From the NCBI GenBank assembly GCA_021815365.1, contig JAKAGZ010000004.1, positions 13,064 through 77,063 on the forward strand: a stretch of DNA of 64,000 bases. Reading direction: 5' to 3'. This stretch comes from Bacteroidota bacterium. Its GTDB lineage: Bacteria; Bacteroidota; Ignavibacteria; Ignavibacteriales; Ignavibacteriaceae. The translations under genes and the position numbers were made by a program. Of the stretch, positions 1,295 to 62,423 are shown piece by piece. Every line of letters begins with the position of its first letter. Position 1 is the stretch's first letter. The notes under the pieces were generated by a model, which was not told where the DNA came from, made no database searches, and saw only the letters and a list, made by a program, of their open reading frames with translations.

Positions 1295-1576
1295 ATATTA
1301 GAGCTCCACAAAACTCAAGACGATGGAGTGAAATTAGGCAAGAAGAACTTTGACATTACAGAGAGTTAGATAATAAGGTGATAAGGTTTGGTTTGTGTTT
1401 TTAGTGTGTGTTGCTAAGGTCTGAAGAAAGAGATAAATGAGGTTTTGAATGAAACATTATTATAAAATGAAAAATCTTAGTAACAAATCTAACCCTCCCC
1501 AACCCTTAACCTTATTACTTTAGAAACTAAAATAGTTTGTCATTTTTTAAAACATTAACTGAGTTTTGTAAAGAAC
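1295..1576. repeat. Non-coding nested-palindrome region between argR and argG
   Basis: No gene is seen in the roughly 315 bases between argR and argG. Instead there are three layers of inverted repeats. The outermost is acaaaactca (1308-1317) against tgagttttgt (1560-1569). Next is 1372-1391 (AATAAGGTGATAAGG...) against 1499-1516 (...ACCTTATT). Innermost is GTTGCTAAG (1410-1418) against CTTAGTAAC (1476-1484). The two inner layers have the same design as hairpins in the elements at 35257 and 61998. A 9-bp direct repeat, ATTTTGAAA, flanks the region (1286-1294 and 1577-1585), but the outer inverted repeat is not flush with it, so the exact borders are uncertain. It also forms the leader region of argG. 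Confidence 0.6.
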
Positions 1577-5203: not shown

Positions 5204-7663
5204 TTATTTCTCCGGAAATAAAATTTTCTGTATTCGGTCTCTGCTGTCCTGAAGATGTGCTTTCGTTTCTCTGTTAGCAGACCTTGAAATATTTTTTTTA
5301 ATCATTAAATCCAGATCAGTCAGTCCTGCTCTGAGTAATGCTCTTGCTTCACCAGGAAGCGGCGTGGGAGGAGGCAGCCTGAAACCAGGCGGAAGGTTTG
5401 CCGGCGGTGTGAATGGTTTCGGATTTAATTTGCCGTCAATGGCATCAAGATATGCGCTCTGCAAATTACGCCGGTAAATATCAATATTGATACCCTGTGA
5501 TTTTAATTCACTCCAGATTCCACTCTGCAGTTCAGTCAACATTTGTGAAAGAGTATATGAATCAGCATTTAATGCTGTCGTATTTATGATCCTTGCCATC
5601 CTGTCATTATTGAGTAAAATGTTCAGCAGATTTCTCTGACCTGCCAGAACTCTATCCATCGTCCCTGTCGGTTCAATTCTGTAAATAATATCATTCTTAA
5701 TCAATTCTTTCGGAGTAGTGAAGCCTTCTTTCTGCAGAAAAGTCATCGCTTCTGTTTGTTTAGCTTTTGGTACCGGTGTATGAAGCACTCCTTCCTGCCC
5801 TGCAACACGCTCTGTGTTAACAACTCCGCCTATGATATTTGCCACGTGACCAAGTTCCCTGTTCCTCTGTGCAAATAACTGGTTATACATTTCTGCAAGT
5901 GTGCTGTAATCTTCACCAGGTTTAGTTGTTGCTTTCATGAGCATATCGGAAATTCTCAAAAGATTTTTTAATCCATAAGCTGTAGATTTAACAGCGTCAT
6001 CTCCCAGGTCTTCAGTCTGTGCAGTTGGATCAATTCCATCTGCACTGCCAAACCTGAGATAAGGTTCTGTCTCCTGCCTGTCAGCAATTTTATTCAGTTC
6101 AGGTTTTTCTTCATCAGGAGTCTTTGCGTCAAAGATCGGTTTATATCCCCACTCAACAGCGAATTTATCATAAGGACCGATCATTGGAATTAATCTTGCA
6201 TTATCGCCCGGCTGTGCAACATAATTAAATCTGCCGTAGTCCATTATAGAAGGCTCGTCACCATATTTTGCTGTAAATGCTGCACTGCGCAGACTATCAA
6301 CTGGATATTGTGAACTCGCTTTCATATTGTGAGGGAAACCAAGCGTATGCCCGACTTCGTGTGCGGCTACATATTCTAAAAGCTGTCCCATCAGTGAATC
6401 AGGCAGCGGTAAGTGAGAAGCTCGCGGATCAAGATCACCAACCTGTATAAAGTACCAGTTTCTTACGAGATTCATTACATTGTGAAAGAATCCAATGTCT
6501 GAATCAAGTATTTCACCTGTCCTCGGGTCGCTGATATGCGGACCGTAGGCATTTTCAGTTTCAGAAGGCAGCCATCTTATCGTTGAATAGCGTGCATCTT
6601 CGGAACTCCAGTTTGGATCTTGTTCAACTGTCGGTGCATCTTTTGCAATGATTGCATTTTTAAATCCGGCTTTTTCAAAAGCAGGCTGCCAGTCTTCAAC
6701 GCCCTTTTTTAACCACGGGCGCCATTTATCAGGTACGCCTCTGTCAATATAATAAACGATTGGTTTAACAGGTTCGCTTAATCCACCGTGCATTATTGCT
6801 GCAGTATCTTTTGGTTCCAGTCTCCATCTTGCGATAAAACTTCTTTTCTCTGCCCGCTGCGAATCGTATCCGTAATCATAATGTGTAACGCTAAAATAAC
6901 CAACGCGTGCATCAACAAGACGCGGCTTCATCGGTTTTTCAGGAAGCCTTACCATCGAATGATGCATAGTTATAGAAATAGTACTCAACGAATTATCAAC
7001 CGGTACAGCCGAAGCTGCATAAGTCAATGTAGCCTGAATTTCAAGATTATCGGGAAACACTTTTATAAAATCAATGAATGACCTTTTCGGATCGAGTCTT
7101 TGCACTTTAAATCTTTCTCTGTTAAATCTGCTTAACCCGAGTTCTGCAACATCAGTTGTAAACAGTTCCGTTACATCAATTACAACTGCAGAGCTGTCAT
7201 TATTATAAGCTTGAATGTTAAAAGCCATTAACACTGGCGGCTGATTAGCCTTTTTTACAGCATAAGAAATTGGCAGTGAATCGGCAGCCATAGATGCGAA
7301 CAAAACACTTCTCAGCAAAACTTTATCTCCTTTTTCTTCCCATCGCACCACCTGCTGATTAACAGCATCTCCGCCATACCCCAAACCTGATTGAGTTTTA
7401 GCCTGCGTGGTTACCAAAAGAAAATCTTTATCAAATTCCTTGAACGGGATCTCGAAATAATATTTATCCTTGACGAGATGAACAATAAAAAGTCCCTTCC
7501 AGGTTTTTGCATCCTTTGTGATCACTTCGCTGTATTTCTTTAACCCGCCCTTGCCCTGATTTTCTTTGGCTTTATTCATGTCAGGTTTTTCCTGTGCAGG
7601 TAAATTCGCAGGCAGCAAAATGTACAGAAGAGTAACAAAAAACAGCAGAATTATTTTTTTCAT
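5204..7663 (-). CDS. Secreted zinc-dependent metalloprotease (DUF5117/DUF4953 type)
   Basis: This 819-residue protein starts with a signal peptide (K-K-I-I-L-L-F-F...A-Q, about 1-24) and is probably exported. The zinc site H-E-V-G-H-T-L-G-F-P-H-N lies at about 434-445, giving the HExxHxxGxxH form of metzincin proteases. A nearby S-I-M-D-Y-G-R could be the Met-turn. The order of regions (N-terminal DUF5118-like segment, DUF5117, catalytic DUF4953 region) fits a broad Bacteroidota/Ignavibacteriota family of uncharacterised secreted proteases; substrates are unknown. Family II element copy 2 sits 43 bases upstream of the start codon, so it may affect the promoter. A strong terminator follows the gene, and it appears monocistronic. 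Confidence 0.9.
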   Translation of the reverse strand: MKKIILLFFVTLLYILLPANLPAQEKPDMNKAKENQGKGGLKKYSEVITKDAKTWKGLFIVHLVKDKYYFEIPFKEFDKDFLLVTTQAKTQSGLGYGGDAVNQQVVRWEEKGDKVLLRSVLFASMAADSLPISYAVKKANQPPVLMAFNIQAYNNDSSAVVIDVTELFTTDVAELGLSRFNRERFKVQRLDPKRSFIDFIKVFPDNLEIQATLTYAASAVPVDNSLSTISITMHHSMVRLPEKPMKPRLVDARVGYFSVTHYDYGYDSQRAEKRSFIARWRLEPKDTAAIMHGGLSEPVKPIVYYIDRGVPDKWRPWLKKGVEDWQPAFEKAGFKNAIIAKDAPTVEQDPNWSSEDARYSTIRWLPSETENAYGPHISDPRTGEILDSDIGFFHNVMNLVRNWYFIQVGDLDPRASHLPLPDSLMGQLLEYVAAHEVGHTLGFPHNMKASSQYPVDSLRSAAFTAKYGDEPSIMDYGRFNYVAQPGDNARLIPMIGPYDKFAVEWGYKPIFDAKTPDEEKPELNKIADRQETEPYLRFGSADGIDPTAQTEDLGDDAVKSTAYGLKNLLRISDMLMKATTKPGEDYSTLAEMYNQLFAQRNRELGHVANIIGGVVNTERVAGQEGVLHTPVPKAKQTEAMTFLQKEGFTTPKELIKNDIIYRIEPTGTMDRVLAGQRNLLNILLNNDRMARIINTTALNADSYTLSQMLTELQSGIWSELKSQGINIDIYRRNLQSAYLDAIDGKLNPKPFTPPANLPPGFRLPPPTPLPGEARALLRAGLTDLDLMIKKNISRSANRETKAHLQDSRDRIQKILFPEK

Positions 7664-34567: not shown

Positions 34568-35170
34568 TTATAAAATTTTTATTTGTGAATCAGTAATTTC
34601 AACTTTGCCGTTTGCAAATTTATTCAGGACAAAAGGCAGCAGCTTATGCTCTATAACCAGAACTCTTTCAGCAATCTCTTCAGGAGATTTTGCCTGAGAA
34701 ATATCAATTTTTTCCTGCGCTATTATTCTGCCGGTATCAAAAGTCTCGTTTACAATATGGACAGTAGCACCGGAAAAACGATCGCCTGAATTAAAAACTG
34801 CACGGTGAACATTCATCCCGTACATTCCTGCACCGCCATAAGATGGAAGTAAAGCGGGATGAATATTTATAATTTTATTCTGAAAACTTTTTATAAATTC
34901 TTTCGGGATCAGTTTAAGAAATCCGGCAAGCACAATAAGCTCAATCTCCATTTCCCTGAATAATGATATAATCTCAGAATAACTCTTGCCGCCGGGTTTA
35001 TTGCTTAAAGTAAAGGTTGGAATAGAATATATACCAGCAACCTGAAAAGCTGCACAATCAATTTTTTCACTGACAACTGCTTTGACTTCAACAATATCTT
35101 TAGTGTAGCCGGATTCTAAAATAGCCTGTAAATTTGAGCCTCTTCCTGAAACGAACACAGCTATTTTCAA
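34568..35170 (-). CDS. purN: Phosphoribosylglycinamide formyltransferase (PurN)
   Basis: PurN transfers a formyl group from 10-formyl-THF to GAR in purine synthesis. The 200 residues show V-S-G-R-G-S-N-L-Q-A at 8-17, the catalytic I-N-I-H-P-A-L-L-P-S (N and H) and the later G-A-T-V-H-I-V-N-E-T-F-D-T-G segment with the catalytic aspartate. It is the first gene of an eleven-gene minus-strand run. The sequence upstream is the Family I element. Confidence 0.95.
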   Translation of the reverse strand: MKIAVFVSGRGSNLQAILESGYTKDIVEVKAVVSEKIDCAAFQVAGIYSIPTFTLSNKPGGKSYSEIISLFREMEIELIVLAGFLKLIPKEFIKSFQNKIINIHPALLPSYGGAGMYGMNVHRAVFNSGDRFSGATVHIVNETFDTGRIIAQEKIDISQAKSPEEIAERVLVIEHKLLPFVLNKFANGKVEITDSQIKIL

Positions 35171-35256
35171 AATAAAACTGTCCTAAAAAAGTGATTAAAA
35201 ATTAGCTAAATAGTAAAATATTGTCAATCGAAACACACTGTTTCTTCGTTCTTTTC

Positions 35257-35684
35257 CACAACTGTCCAAAACAAATTATAGAAATTACCTGGAACCTGTC
35301 TGCCGACAGGCAGGATTGATAACCTGATTTAGTGTCTAATGTTTTCAGAAATAAGGTAATAAGCTTTTTCTTCAGGTTCGTTATTTTTGCTACTAAGGTT
35401 TTAAACAAATCATAAGGTTTAACCTTATTGTTAAAGAAAATCTTAGTAGCAAAAGCAAAGCATAACTGCAAACCTTATTACCTTATTATTGACAAATATA
35501 TCGCTAATAATTGCCTGCTATAGTCCATCCACGCTGTAACGGAACCACATTAATTTAGCATCTGGCTGCTGTATTAACCAGCAGTTGCTTGAATGGGATT
35601 TAAAATCCGGTTTTGAAAAATCAGTCCTCAACAAACAATGTGACAACTATTTTTGTTAGCCTATATTTAATTTGGACAGCATTG
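35257..35684. mobile_element. Family I non-coding element with nested hairpins, copy A (428 bp)
   Basis: Imperfect terminal inverted repeats, CACAACTGTCCAAA at the left and CAATGCTGTCCAAA (read inward) at the right, are flanked by 9-bp direct repeats GTTCTTTTC at 35248-35256 and 35685-35693. Inside are nested stems. The outer is 14 bp, 35350-35363 with 35474-35487. The middle is 13 bp, 35385-35397 with 35442-35454. The inner is ATAAGGTT/AACCTTAT (35412-35428). A GC-rich palindrome (35295-35310) and smaller hairpins near 35560-35620 are also present. The whole element matches the reverse complement of 61998-62423 along its length. I see no credible protein. It fills the gap between purN and the TPR gene, and the right 9-bp repeat touches the TPR stop codon. 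Confidence 0.85.
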
Positions 35685-35692
35685 GTTCTTTT

Positions 35693-37198
35693 CTAAAATT
35701 TTTCCCGGCTTTTCAACGCAAAGAGCAGGTTCTTCAACTTATTCTGGTAATCATAATTTTTATAATCATCAGCTTGTTCAAGATAAAGTTTTGCATCGGC
35801 ATCTTCGCCCAATTTTTCTTTTGCACGTGCAGCAAAATAACAAGCGAAAGGTTTTATCCATTTTTCATTTTTTATCTTTAACGATTTTGCAGTTAAGGCT
35901 GTATCTGCAGAAGCTTCATATCTTTTTAACGAAAAAAGAGCATCACTAAGGTGCAGGAGAGCTTCAGCCTTAATATCATTTGAGATTGTATTTTTAGCAA
36001 GGTACGAAAGGCTGTCTACTGCAGTTTTATATCTGCCGGTCTCAACGTAATGAGTAAAACGGATAAGGTCCATATCATCTTTTGTGAATCCTTCATCGGC
36101 TAACAGTTCGCCCCTTCTTTTTGCGTAGATGTCATCATCAATATCCAGGTTACCGCGATCTGATAATTTGAAATAAGCTTTAGATACGTCTTTTTGTCCC
36201 ATAAATTCATAACAAACTCCAAGCCTGTAATTGGCAATTCCTGTGTAATCATTATCAAGCGTAGTCAGGATAAATTTATTGTAATACACAGTAGCTGAGT
36301 CAAATTTATTTTTCTTAAAAAGAACATCGCCTGTCAGAAAATTTGAATATGCGATAAGCTGTTTAAATTTTGAGGTATGGGTATTCCTGAGTCTTCTCAG
36401 AATTCTCTCAGCCTGATCGAGCTTTCTTTCTTTTATATATATTACTGCGAGTGAATAATTAAATAACAGATTATTAGGATACCTGGCAATCAAAGAATTC
36501 ATATAATTTGAAGCAGTTGAATAATCACTAAAAAAATCTGTAAGTATCTGCGAATAGTAAAACCGGGCTTCGACCCTTGAGTATGTTCCGTGGGTCATTG
36601 CTTCTTTAATATATTCCAATCCTTTCTCTTTATTACCTTTCATACCTGCCAGGCTTAAAGCCCATTGAAAGGCTTTTGGTATTTGTCCCATAGCAAAGTT
36701 GTACAAACCGAGTCCAAGATATGCATCATAAAATCTTGGATTTAGTTCGATAACTTTATTCAGAAAACTTTCTGATCTTTTTGTAGCCCAAACTGCATCG
36801 AGAAATTTTCCCTCTTGTGTGAAAGCCATAGCACGGTATGAGTAATTGGCGCCGAGTATGTACAAAATCTCAGTATTGTTCTCGTCGTTATCCAGCAGAG
36901 CAACAGCTTTTTCAATCGCCTGATCAGAATACTCAATAAATCTTTGCAGGTCAGCTTTATCCTTGTTGCTGAAATAATACCAGAAATAGATACTTGATTT
37001 GTAGTGATAGCCGCGCGGGTCATCATGATATTTATCAATTAGTCTTTGAAATGTTATTTCTGCCTGCGACCATCTGAAGCCGTAGCAATTATCAAGTCCC
37101 CTTAGAATTGCATTTTTAATTTCAGCCTGAGCAAATACAGCCTGACTAAAAATAAAAGTTATTATTAGGTATACCAGAAGAAAGGTTTTCTTTTTCAT
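35693..37198 (-). CDS. Secreted TPR-repeat protein
   Basis: 501 residues from the ATG at 37198, chosen because a signal peptide starts there (K-K-K-T-F-L-L-V-Y-L-I-I-T-F...V-F-A-Q). The frame is open further upstream to 37330, overlapping pyrG, and that is rejected. The mature protein is helical with tetratricopeptide repeats (for example Y-L-G-L-G-L-Y-N-F-A-M-G, Y-S-L-A-V-I-Y-I-K-E-R-K-L-D-Q-A-E, Y-R-L-G-V-C-Y-E-F-M-G-Q). It probably works in the periplasm or outer membrane as an assembly scaffold; no specific partner is evident. The stop TAG (35695-35693) touches the 9-bp repeat of the Family I element. Confidence 0.8.
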   Translation of the reverse strand: MKKKTFLLVYLIITFIFSQAVFAQAEIKNAILRGLDNCYGFRWSQAEITFQRLIDKYHDDPRGYHYKSSIYFWYYFSNKDKADLQRFIEYSDQAIEKAVALLDNDENNTEILYILGANYSYRAMAFTQEGKFLDAVWATKRSESFLNKVIELNPRFYDAYLGLGLYNFAMGQIPKAFQWALSLAGMKGNKEKGLEYIKEAMTHGTYSRVEARFYYSQILTDFFSDYSTASNYMNSLIARYPNNLLFNYSLAVIYIKERKLDQAERILRRLRNTHTSKFKQLIAYSNFLTGDVLFKKNKFDSATVYYNKFILTTLDNDYTGIANYRLGVCYEFMGQKDVSKAYFKLSDRGNLDIDDDIYAKRRGELLADEGFTKDDMDLIRFTHYVETGRYKTAVDSLSYLAKNTISNDIKAEALLHLSDALFSLKRYEASADTALTAKSLKIKNEKWIKPFACYFAARAKEKLGEDADAKLYLEQADDYKNYDYQNKLKNLLFALKSREKF

Positions 37199-37241
37199 TA
37201 ACATAAAAATTTTTTGCTGAAGTCTGCCTGCCGGGTATAAT

Positions 37242-38924
<1,683 letters not shown>

Positions 38925-55026: not shown

Positions 55027-56167
55027 CAGAGTAAGGCAGAACGACAGAATATCTTTGCAGGATTTTTCTTGTGTCGGCAAATGCTTCAAACATTTTCCGA
55101 AAATCTTCTTTCGAGAGAGAGGGGTAAATATTATCTAAATCTAACATAAAATATTGTGAAGGGATTATAACATAACCTGCTTTCCCTCCTGTGTGTGATT
55201 TAAACACCCACGTTGGAACATAATCTATTCTCGAAATAAACACATGGTGCAAAAAAATATTTTTTGTGATAGATATTCTTAAGATCACACCGCAATCAGA
55301 ATATCTCCACCTCTGATTTGAAATAAAATTGCCAAGTGAATATGCTATCAGACCGGAATCCAAAGCAGCTCCGTTTGTTTTATAAAACCGCAGCGGCTGT
55401 ATAACGTGTGGGTGACCGCCGATAATTATATCAGCACCGAATTTAATTGTACTGTCAGTAACATTGTTTTCAAACTGATCAGGTTCTCTTTTGTATTCAG
55501 TGCCAAAATGAAAGTGAACAAAAACTAAGTCAGCATTTTCTTTACGCGCTTTTTGTATATCGCTTCTGATCAGGTTAAAGTCAATTTTATTGATCAGATA
55601 AGGCTTATCCTTAGGAACCTGGTTGCCGTTTGTTCCATAAGTATAAGCAAGAAATGCAACCCTTATTCCTTTAATGTCAAATATTCTTATCGAATCACGA
55701 TCACGCTGAGAGGTAAAAGTACCGTTATAATTAATTTTATTTTCGTTCATAATTTTTATAGTTCTTAAGACGCCGTACTCTCCCCTGTCAAGAGCGTGAT
55801 TATTTGCAGTCGAAAGTAAATTGAAGCCTGCATTTTTTAATGCTGAAATATATTCGTCGGGAGAATTAAACCGCGGGTAACCGGAGTATTTTTTATCTTT
55901 TCCTGCAGTTACTGTTTCAAGATTTCCAAAAGTAAAATCTGAGTCGGACAAATATTTTTTTACTAAGCGGTAGACAGGATTGAAGTCAAAGCTGTCCGGC
56001 GCAGTTTGTGCAGCAATATACTGGTATGAATGACACATCAAGTCGCCAACAGCCGAAATGGTAATTGTTATTGATGAATCTTTTTTAGTCTGAGCGTGGT
56101 TGTTACAGGCATACAAAAAAAGAGTTGTCATCACAAGAAACGGGAGTAAAAAGCGAAAGTAATTCAT
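55019..56167 (-). CDS. CapA-family lipoprotein (PGA capsule synthesis-like metallophosphatase)
   Basis: 382 residues with a lipoprotein signal (F-L-V-M-T-T-L-F-L-Y-A-C, lipobox cysteine at about 21). The CapA domain follows: A-V-G-D-L-M-C-H, G-N-L-E-T-V-T-A, A-N-N-H-A-L-D-R-G, and G-G-H-P-H-V-I-Q-P, the metal-binding motifs of the calcineurin-like fold. In Bacillus, CapA helps poly-gamma-glutamate export; no other capsule genes are here, so the role is open. A terminator of the histone-like gene lies just upstream. Confidence 0.88.
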   Translation of the reverse strand: MNYFRFLLPFLVMTTLFLYACNNHAQTKKDSSITITISAVGDLMCHSYQYIAAQTAPDSFDFNPVYRLVKKYLSDSDFTFGNLETVTAGKDKKYSGYPRFNSPDEYISALKNAGFNLLSTANNHALDRGEYGVLRTIKIMNENKINYNGTFTSQRDRDSIRIFDIKGIRVAFLAYTYGTNGNQVPKDKPYLINKIDFNLIRSDIQKARKENADLVFVHFHFGTEYKREPDQFENNVTDSTIKFGADIIIGGHPHVIQPLRFYKTNGAALDSGLIAYSLGNFISNQRWRYSDCGVILRISITKNIFLHHVFISRIDYVPTWVFKSHTGGKAGYVIIPSQYFMLDLDNIYPSLSKEDFRKMFEAFADTRKILQRYSVVLPYSAN

Positions 56168-61626: not shown

Positions 61627-61935
61627 ATGAAAAGAAAGCCAGCCCATCCAGGAATTATTTTAAAAGAAGAATTTTTAATCCCTATGAGATTAACACAAAC
61701 GGGATTTTCTTCTTTGATAAACTCAACGCCAAAGATTGTAAAAGAAATAATTAATGAAAAAAGAAGTGTTACGACTGAAATGGCAATAAAATTTTCAAAA
61801 TTTTTCGGGACTTCCGTAGAATTGTGGCTGAACCTGCAGAACCAATATGATATTTATAGTACATTATTAAACAACCCTGCAAAGCTTAGCAGTATTCGCC
61901 CATATAAAGAAAGAAAATACAAGCTATATAATTGA
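61627..61935 (+). CDS. higA: HigA-family antitoxin (orphan)
   Basis: 102 residues of the HigA/VapI type HTH antitoxin: K-R-K-P-A-H-P-G-I-I-L-K-E-E-F at the start, an HTH around residues 22-55, and K-F-F-G-T-S-V-E-L-W-L-N-L-Q. HigB toxin genes usually lie just upstream, but only 68 bases separate it from the uspA-like stop and no toxin is there or after it. The Family I element starts 62 bases downstream. Confidence 0.85.
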   Translation: MKRKPAHPGIILKEEFLIPMRLTQTGFSSLINSTPKIVKEIINEKRSVTTEMAIKFSKFFGTSVELWLNLQNQYDIYSTLLNNPAKLSSIRPYKERKYKLYN

Positions 61936-61997: not shown

Positions 61998-62423
61998 CAA
62001 TGCTGCACAAATTAAATTTAGGATAGCAAAAAAGTTGTCACATTGTTTGTTGAGGACTGATTTTTTTTAACTGGATTTAAATCCCCCTTCACGCAACTGC
62101 TGGTTTAGTCCGGCAGCTACAGGATGCTAAATTAAAGTGGTTCCGTTACAGTGTTGGACTATGGCAGGCAATTATTGGCGATACTATGTCAATAATGTAA
62201 TAAGGTTTGCTGTTATGCTTTGCTTCTGCTGCTAAGGTTTTGTTTAACAATAAGGTTAAAAACCTTATGATTTGTTCAAACCTTAGCAGCTAAAAATAAC
62301 GAACCAGTATAAAAGCCTTATCACCTTATTTCTGAAAATATCTGATACTAAATCAGGTTATCAATCCTGCCTGTCGGCAGACAGGTTCCAGAGAACTTCA
62401 ATTATTTGTTTTGAACAGAAGAG
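61998..62423. mobile_element. Family I non-coding element with nested hairpins, copy B (426 bp, inverted)
   Basis: It is the reverse complement of the 35257-35684 element along its whole length, with scattered substitutions. Terminal repeats are CAATGCTGCACAAA (left) and CTGTTCAAA near the right end on the other strand. The nested stems are kept: 62191-62205 with 62316-62330; GCTGCTAAGG (62228-62237) with CCTTAGCAGC (62281-62290); ATAAGGTT/AACCTTAT (62250-62268); plus the GC palindrome (62366-62385). I found no target duplication for this copy. It lies between higA and the stop codon of the DCC gene and carries no gene. Confidence 0.82.

Follow-up and report, generated by a model that had tools for sequence, protein, structure and literature searches.

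MITEs, which are moved by DDE transposases, and REP-like repeats, which are moved as single strands by HUH enzymes, are usually treated apart. Among the former, the IS4Sa subgroup of the IS4 family has ends of the form 5'-CA------T, target duplications of 8-10 bp and a length of 1150-1750 bp (De Palmenaer 2008, PMC2266710). Among the HUH systems, known IS200/IS605 members generate no larger target duplications (PMC2817692), the published survey of TnpA_Y1 transposases gives no REP for subclass 1.2 (Quentin 2018, PMC6006769), and the TIRYTs belong mostly to Y1 subclass 2.1, many of them with a GGGGWSAS motif that is not obligatory (PMC3733652). Here we describe an element in a 64,000-nucleotide stretch of DNA (the window) that appears to join the two kinds. 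We read it as a composite, probably immobile, in which a MITE shell of IS4Sa type encloses an inverted pair of the repeats that flank a Y1 (HUH) transposase gene, the whole having been spread by IS4 machinery (probability roughly 0.87).

The window comes from contig C45 of a draft genome of 3.09 Mb (G000, 99.95% complete), and all copy counts given for this genome rest on sequence searches of that draft assembly. The complete element, copy A, was recognised by blastn, repeats and genome search and occupies positions 35257-35684 (plus strand, 428 bp) between a purN-like gene (34568-35170, minus strand) and a TPR gene (35693-37330, minus strand), both gene names being those of a sequence-only reading of the window. 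The flanking 9-bp direct repeat GTTCTTTTC is perfect at 35248-35256 and at 35685-35693, where it overlaps the reported TPR ORF by a single base, the last of the repeat and the first of the ORF, and therefore the coordinates and the 9-bp target duplication proposed in that reading are exact. Copy B (61998-62423, minus strand), noticed at the same time as an inverted relative, indeed matches copy A over its whole length (blastn, 85.3% identity over 430 columns, E 9e-134); it is complete and decayed, with degenerate ends and without a target duplication. Neither copy holds a plausible protein gene, as had been stated, the ORF over copy A (89 aa) running through both element and flank. Beside copy B, an ORF of 102 aa (61627-61935) looks by eye like a HigA-type antitoxin.

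A search of the whole genome with copy A returned 29 matches, which by position represent about 22 loci ranging from full-length copies down to solo ends; a lack of further copies would have refuted the sequence-only reading. When copies were aligned together with their flanks, homology ended at the same points, the proposed ends, and no homologous flanks continued past them. Copy A also contains a small palindrome, CCTGTCTGCCGACAGGCAGG (35295-35314), which recurs in copy B at 62366-62385 and is present in most, not all, MITE copies, being absent from L004, L016 and L021. It is dispersed in the genomes of relatives (G001, G014 and G030), in places in G001 at a spacing of about 121 bp, and is probably a third, separate nested repeat family or insertion. 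Four copies in the window's genome (L010, L012, L014 and L021) look chimeric, with part of the core fused to another repeat, GTTATGTTAAAAGTCAATATCGCC..., that is similar to the sequence flanking one unit pair of G028 (L069).

Copy A begins CACAACTGTCC and finishes GGACAGCATTG, with a left IS4Sa-type terminal inverted repeat, CACAACTGTCCAAAACAAAT, at 35257-35276 (plus strand) and a right one (reverse complement CAATGCTGTCCAAATTAAAT) at 35665-35684 (minus strand). The ends of the MITE shell read 5'-CANNNCTGTCCAAA, and its target duplications are 8-9 bp long. The positions of these duplications in several copies show that the element reaches 5 nt beyond CTGTCC at each end. Of the earlier description of the ends as inverted repeats of CTGT(C/T)CAAA type in both copies, the inversion is thus real, while the true limits lie farther out and the ends of copy B are degenerate. 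A paired-end scan of all fetched loci found 8-bp duplications in L212 (GTGAATAC), L205 (GTTTAAAT), L104 (TTATGATT), L006 (AAGAAAAC), L211 (ATTCTAAT) and L002 (TAATACAC), and inspection of the sequence showed a 9-bp repeat, GCACGATAA, at a derivative of about 75 bp that has kept both ends (L085). Within G000 a clear duplication was seen at only four loci (L001, L002, L006 and the derivative L085), most copies being decayed. The IS4Sa-type end pattern, a CA start with T at position 9, is found in copy A as CACAACTGT and CAATGCTGT, and the duplications fall within the 8-10 bp of that type, though they are absent from copy B and from the majority of decayed copies. The end motif was found in 77 of 164 genomes of the order and is multi-copy in many of them, although single matches to so short a pattern can be chance. 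We have very high confidence that the element is a MITE.

The same ends also bound a transposase-bearing element in relatives. In G066, two inverted ends lie 1356 bp apart around a 391-aa ORF whose product has DUF4372 and DDE_Tnp_1 domains and a YREK motif, and scores 233.7 bits against the NCBIfam IS4 model (cutoff 115). A homologue with 72% identity in G025 lies within an intact 1366-bp IS whose ends read CATATCTGTCC / GGACAGCACTG and whose 8-bp duplication, AAGAAAAG, is perfect; the IS4Sa end pattern on these two insertion sequences reads CATATCTGT. The sequence-only reading had pointed to a full-length relative with a transposase and the same ends as something to look for, and the IS4 element of G066 and G025 is such a relative. 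Its view of the block as a non-autonomous transposable element agrees with all of this: the element is multi-copy and gene-less, has inverted ends and target duplications, and shares its ends with an autonomous relative.

Compared with the described IS4Sa subgroup (PMC2266710), the ends, the 8-bp duplication, the YREK motif and the 1366-bp size of the parent are alike, the MITE being a derivative without an ORF. Unlike a simple derivative of such a parent, the MITE has an interior with no recognisable deletion remnant, which instead holds an inverted repeat pair of an unrelated HUH transposase, and no transposase was found in its host genome. There, neither PF01609 nor the IS4 protein of the relative gave a match; the copies in the window's genome therefore look stranded, a status that is not absolute since a draft assembly can lose repeats, and their parentage rests on the ends and duplications seen in other genomes. 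We place high confidence in IS4Sa parentage of the shell and consider current mobility of the element in the window's genome to be unlikely. We also considered as parent a fragment of an ISNCY-like transposase (C56:7317-7601) that neighbours a solo end, and rejected it, as it seems by eye to have different ends of its own, TACTGACATTTC. The locus in question (L088:7208-7642, on C56 of the window's genome) is an ISNCY/IS481-like remnant, with an HTH fragment at 7317-7601 and TACTGACATTTC as possible ends, and adjoins a right MITE end that stands alone.

The core of copy A (element positions 94-231) is an imperfect palindrome whose arms recur in other genera. It consists of an inverted pair of a bipartite unit of about 50 bp, AATAAGGTAATAAGGT-N(~24)-TACTAAGGT. 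The left arm is a unit at 35350-35399 on the plus strand (AATAAGGTAATAAG ... GCTACTAAGG), the right arm a unit at 35440-35487 on the minus strand (CTTAGTAGC ... CTTATTACCTTATT), and a central ATAAGGTTTAACCTTAT palindrome at 35412-35428 forms the tip of the hairpin. The corresponding units of copy B lie at 62191-62238 (AATAATGTAATAAGG ... GCTGCTAAGG, plus strand) and 62280-62330 (CCTTAGCAGC ... CCTTATCACCTTATT, minus strand). The spacer within a unit is variable in sequence and nearly fixed in length, and units occur in inverted pairs and in alternating arrays. Of the 164 genomes of the order, 18 had exact matches to the bipartite motif; these belong to two families, and a reversed control pattern gave 0 matches. 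In the 80 Y1 transposase loci described below, 273 units were counted vs 2 in shuffled sequence, and their consensus consists of AATAAGgTAATAAGGTt and (c)TACTAAGGTt, with about 40 nt from the start of one to the start of the other. One further unit-like match in the window (55608-55675) appears to lie within a coding region and was put down to chance. Close to contig ends in G016, G021 and G102, genomes of two families, there are near-identical unit pairs (e.g. ATAAGGTAATAAGGTTGATATTCTTTTGATTATCTTGGTTACTAAGG), which may belong to a multi-copy element that bears such units and has spread recently. In the open-access literature we found no paper on the bipartite motif or on nesting of MITE plus REP, and the repeat family of this Y1 clade appears to be undescribed.

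The nested hairpins in the interior, which had been noted from the sequence along with the idea that they might make a structured RNA, are real. Their MFE is -120.7 kcal/mol (z = -6.05 vs dinucleotide shuffles). Both this strong fold and the intergenic position would suit a structured RNA, for example a regulatory one, that was selected and repeated for its usefulness. Single units, however, do not fold by themselves (mean MFE -1.8, compared with -1.4 with shuffled spacers), and for this reason a hairpin within each unit as in REPs was rejected; the z of -6 arises where the conserved motifs of two inverted units pair with one another. Rfam gave no match in the window, and among seven cores from G000, in which 95% of cells pair, only two double-changed pairs were seen, a number reached in 228 of 500 shuffles, so that pairing across these few sequences is not above shuffles. 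The arms between the ends and the core have no detectable homology between genera, and the two inverted units that make the hairpin exist elsewhere without the remaining element. Given the missing Rfam match, covariation at the level of shuffles and the inverted units, no structured RNA needs to be invoked, and we regard this explanation as very improbable. It is the inversion of the two units that yields the nested hairpin, as a by-product.

At several loci the units enclose an ORF of about 147 aa whose product, a Y1/IS200-like transposase, matches PF01797 (E 4e-19 to 2e-15). One such protein of 147 aa, with Y115 as its presumed catalytic tyrosine, is encoded at L142:1129-1569 (Ignavibacteriaceae). 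By best match, close relatives of the transposase (at least 72% identity) occur in 12 genomes, the best matches of other genomes reaching at most about 52%. Units were found near the gene in all 12 close Y1 loci vs none of 17 divergent ones, and the exact motif in 10 of the 12 genomes with the close clade vs 8 of 152 without it (Fisher p 9e-10). When 84,980 species genomes were scanned, we obtained the 80 best loci, by design the closest relatives only, with 67-100% identity to the Y1 protein. They are labelled mostly as Bacteroidota and Ignavibacteria, with Caldithrix, KSB1, Desulfobacterales and others, most records being MAGs in which some taxon labels may be binning errors. Units stand within 600 bp of the Y1 gene in 80 of these 80 loci, counted with a relaxed pattern of up to 4+2 mismatches that found 2 matches in 452 kb of shuffled sequence. 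They are usually inverted, a minus-strand unit just upstream and a plus-strand unit just downstream, a few to 30 bp from the ends of the ORF. The window's genome has only a pseudogene of the Y1 clade, with 52% identity and five stops, 16 bp away from one unit. We have very high confidence in the link of the core to this Y1 clade.

One might instead take the inner pair for a binding site of a host protein or a bidirectional terminator, its link to Y1 genes being non-functional. A unit that lacks its own fold and has two motifs at nearly fixed spacing around a variable spacer would indeed suit double-strand binding. Against this stand the units within 600 bp of the gene in 80 of 80 close tnpA loci, compared with none of 17 divergent ones, and the co-occurrence with the clade at the level of genomes (p 9e-10, as above), and we judge it improbable. 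The preferred reading, a repeat pair belonging to a Y1 transposase, is extended by how related systems work: by analogy, the enzyme would act on the units.

In a fold search, the best PDB matches of an AlphaFold model of the Y1 protein (mean pLDDT 69) were IS200/IS605-type transposases, its predicted fold agreeing with that of IS608/ISDra2 TnpA, and a REP-associated transposase came at rank 30; searching PDB sequences with the TnpA profile gave no match. In alignment A1, WQ is present in all members and YILNQ--HH in 9 of 10, and all aligned close members have EHVH, whereas divergent relatives mostly have DH-H. The clade resembles TnpA_Y1 subclass 1.2 in its Y---Q--HH motif (YILNQP-HH), WQ, a length near 147 aa, the small number of close copies in each genome and frequent occurrence in Bacteroidota. 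It differs in its HuH motif, which is EHVH instead of DH[IV]H and therefore places the clade beside rather than inside subclass 1.2, and in the specific repeat that flanks every close member examined, no REP being given for that subclass (PMC6006769). More distant Y---Q--HH genes (L242, L243, L244, L245 and L247) are flanked by other inverted repeats, e.g. of TCCCGTTAGGGA and TACCCCCGAAGCGGGG type, which in 5 of 8 cases examined were above z = 4. Cognate repeats may be a general feature of subclass 1.2.

As in REPIN/RAYT systems (REPtrons), a Y1 gene is accompanied by short repeats, in inverted pairs and alternating arrays, both near the gene and genome-wide. However, the units have neither a GTAG foot nor an internal hairpin of the kind bound by known Y1 transposases, so they are not REPIN/RAYT, and the one protein that matched the NCBIfam RAYT model scored 19.2 against a cutoff of 80. 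Closer is the likeness to TIRtrons and their TIRYTs (PMC3733652), a comparison that concerns the Y1 genes of relatives, the window element carrying repeats only. In both, inverted repeats other than GTAG hairpins enclose a Y1 gene and also occur as dispersed dimers and clusters. The present system is unlike them in its class-1 Y motif and its bipartite AATAAGGTAATAAGGT-N~24-TACTAAGGT repeat, and GGGGWSAS is absent from the consensus of the 273 units. Judged by these sequence features, the core is part of a TIRtron-like Y1 system.

Unit pairs within MITEs were also found in relatives. About 16 loci of G028 have the IS4Sa-type end; the unit pair is found in 7 of them, and at least 5 further ones hold a complete MITE of 234-323 bp that lacks it. 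A single composite (L104/L172) occurs in G081, with the pair inside a MITE with the same ends. A chance estimate for unit pairs in MITEs carries no weight, because composite copies multiply together. The arm sequences between ends and core gave no match above decoys between G000, G028 and G081, and G028 itself falls into two groups. Arm lengths are alike between G000 and G028 (left, 51 nt in a G000 copy without the small palindrome and 45-48 nt in G028; right, 176 in copy A and 158-174 in complete G028 copies), which makes both an old, drifted composite and repeated capture possible. MITEs of a second type (ends near TTCACAAAACT) carry Y1 unit pairs in G000 and G027. One of them is the third carrier in the window (1304-1573, plus strand; ends CTCCACAAAACTCA / TGAGTTTTGTAAAG), with the same inverted unit pair, whose outer motifs lie at 1372-1386 and 1510-1522. 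This MITE sits between argR-like and argininosuccinate-synthase-like genes and has related copies in the window's genome (L145 and L146) and in G027 (L155 and L156), of which L155 seems to be bounded by a 9-bp repeat, TTAAATAAT.

Unit pairs without detectable MITE ends in several genomes, and the arrays around tnpA, could suggest that the Y1 transposase moved the whole 428-bp element in a REPIN-like manner and that the outer repeats are incidental. Yet duplications of 8-9 bp lie exactly outside the CTGTCC ends, unlike in IS200/IS605 members, and the same ends are found on MITEs without Y1 units and on an IS4 element. This explanation is in our view highly improbable, slightly more so than the structured RNA, and we infer that IS4 machinery moved the element last. 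On the composite reading, the shell would derive from an IS4-family (IS4Sa-type) insertion sequence and would have spread by DDE transposition, with an IS4 transposase presumably acting in trans on the CANNNCTGTCCAAA ends and duplicating 8-9 bp of target. The interior holds two inverted copies of the flanking repeat of an HUH/Y1 (IS200-like) transposase gene, a gene that is usually found between two units, with extra units around it in alternating orientation. By analogy with the REPtron and the TIRtron, the unit pair would represent likely recognition and cleavage sites of the Y1 enzyme and, lying inside the MITE, would be co-copied by the IS4 machinery.

More tentatively, and at somewhat less than even odds, these observations may define a cross-phylum clade of class-1 Y1 enzymes with a cognate bipartite repeat that is not a hairpin. 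Its enzymes would recognise paired inverted units, as a split stem or double-stranded sites, instead of the subterminal hairpins of IS608 and RAYTs, and the pairs would switch vehicle into DDE-moved MITEs after their own enzyme had died. The shell is of a known kind, a MITE of a known IS group, and the repeats of the Y1 clade look undescribed; they may have been missed because surveys sought hairpins. In at least three genera, repeats of one mobile system are thus carried within another, and the unit is a candidate DNA target for a Y1 group close to one without cognate repeats in the published survey.
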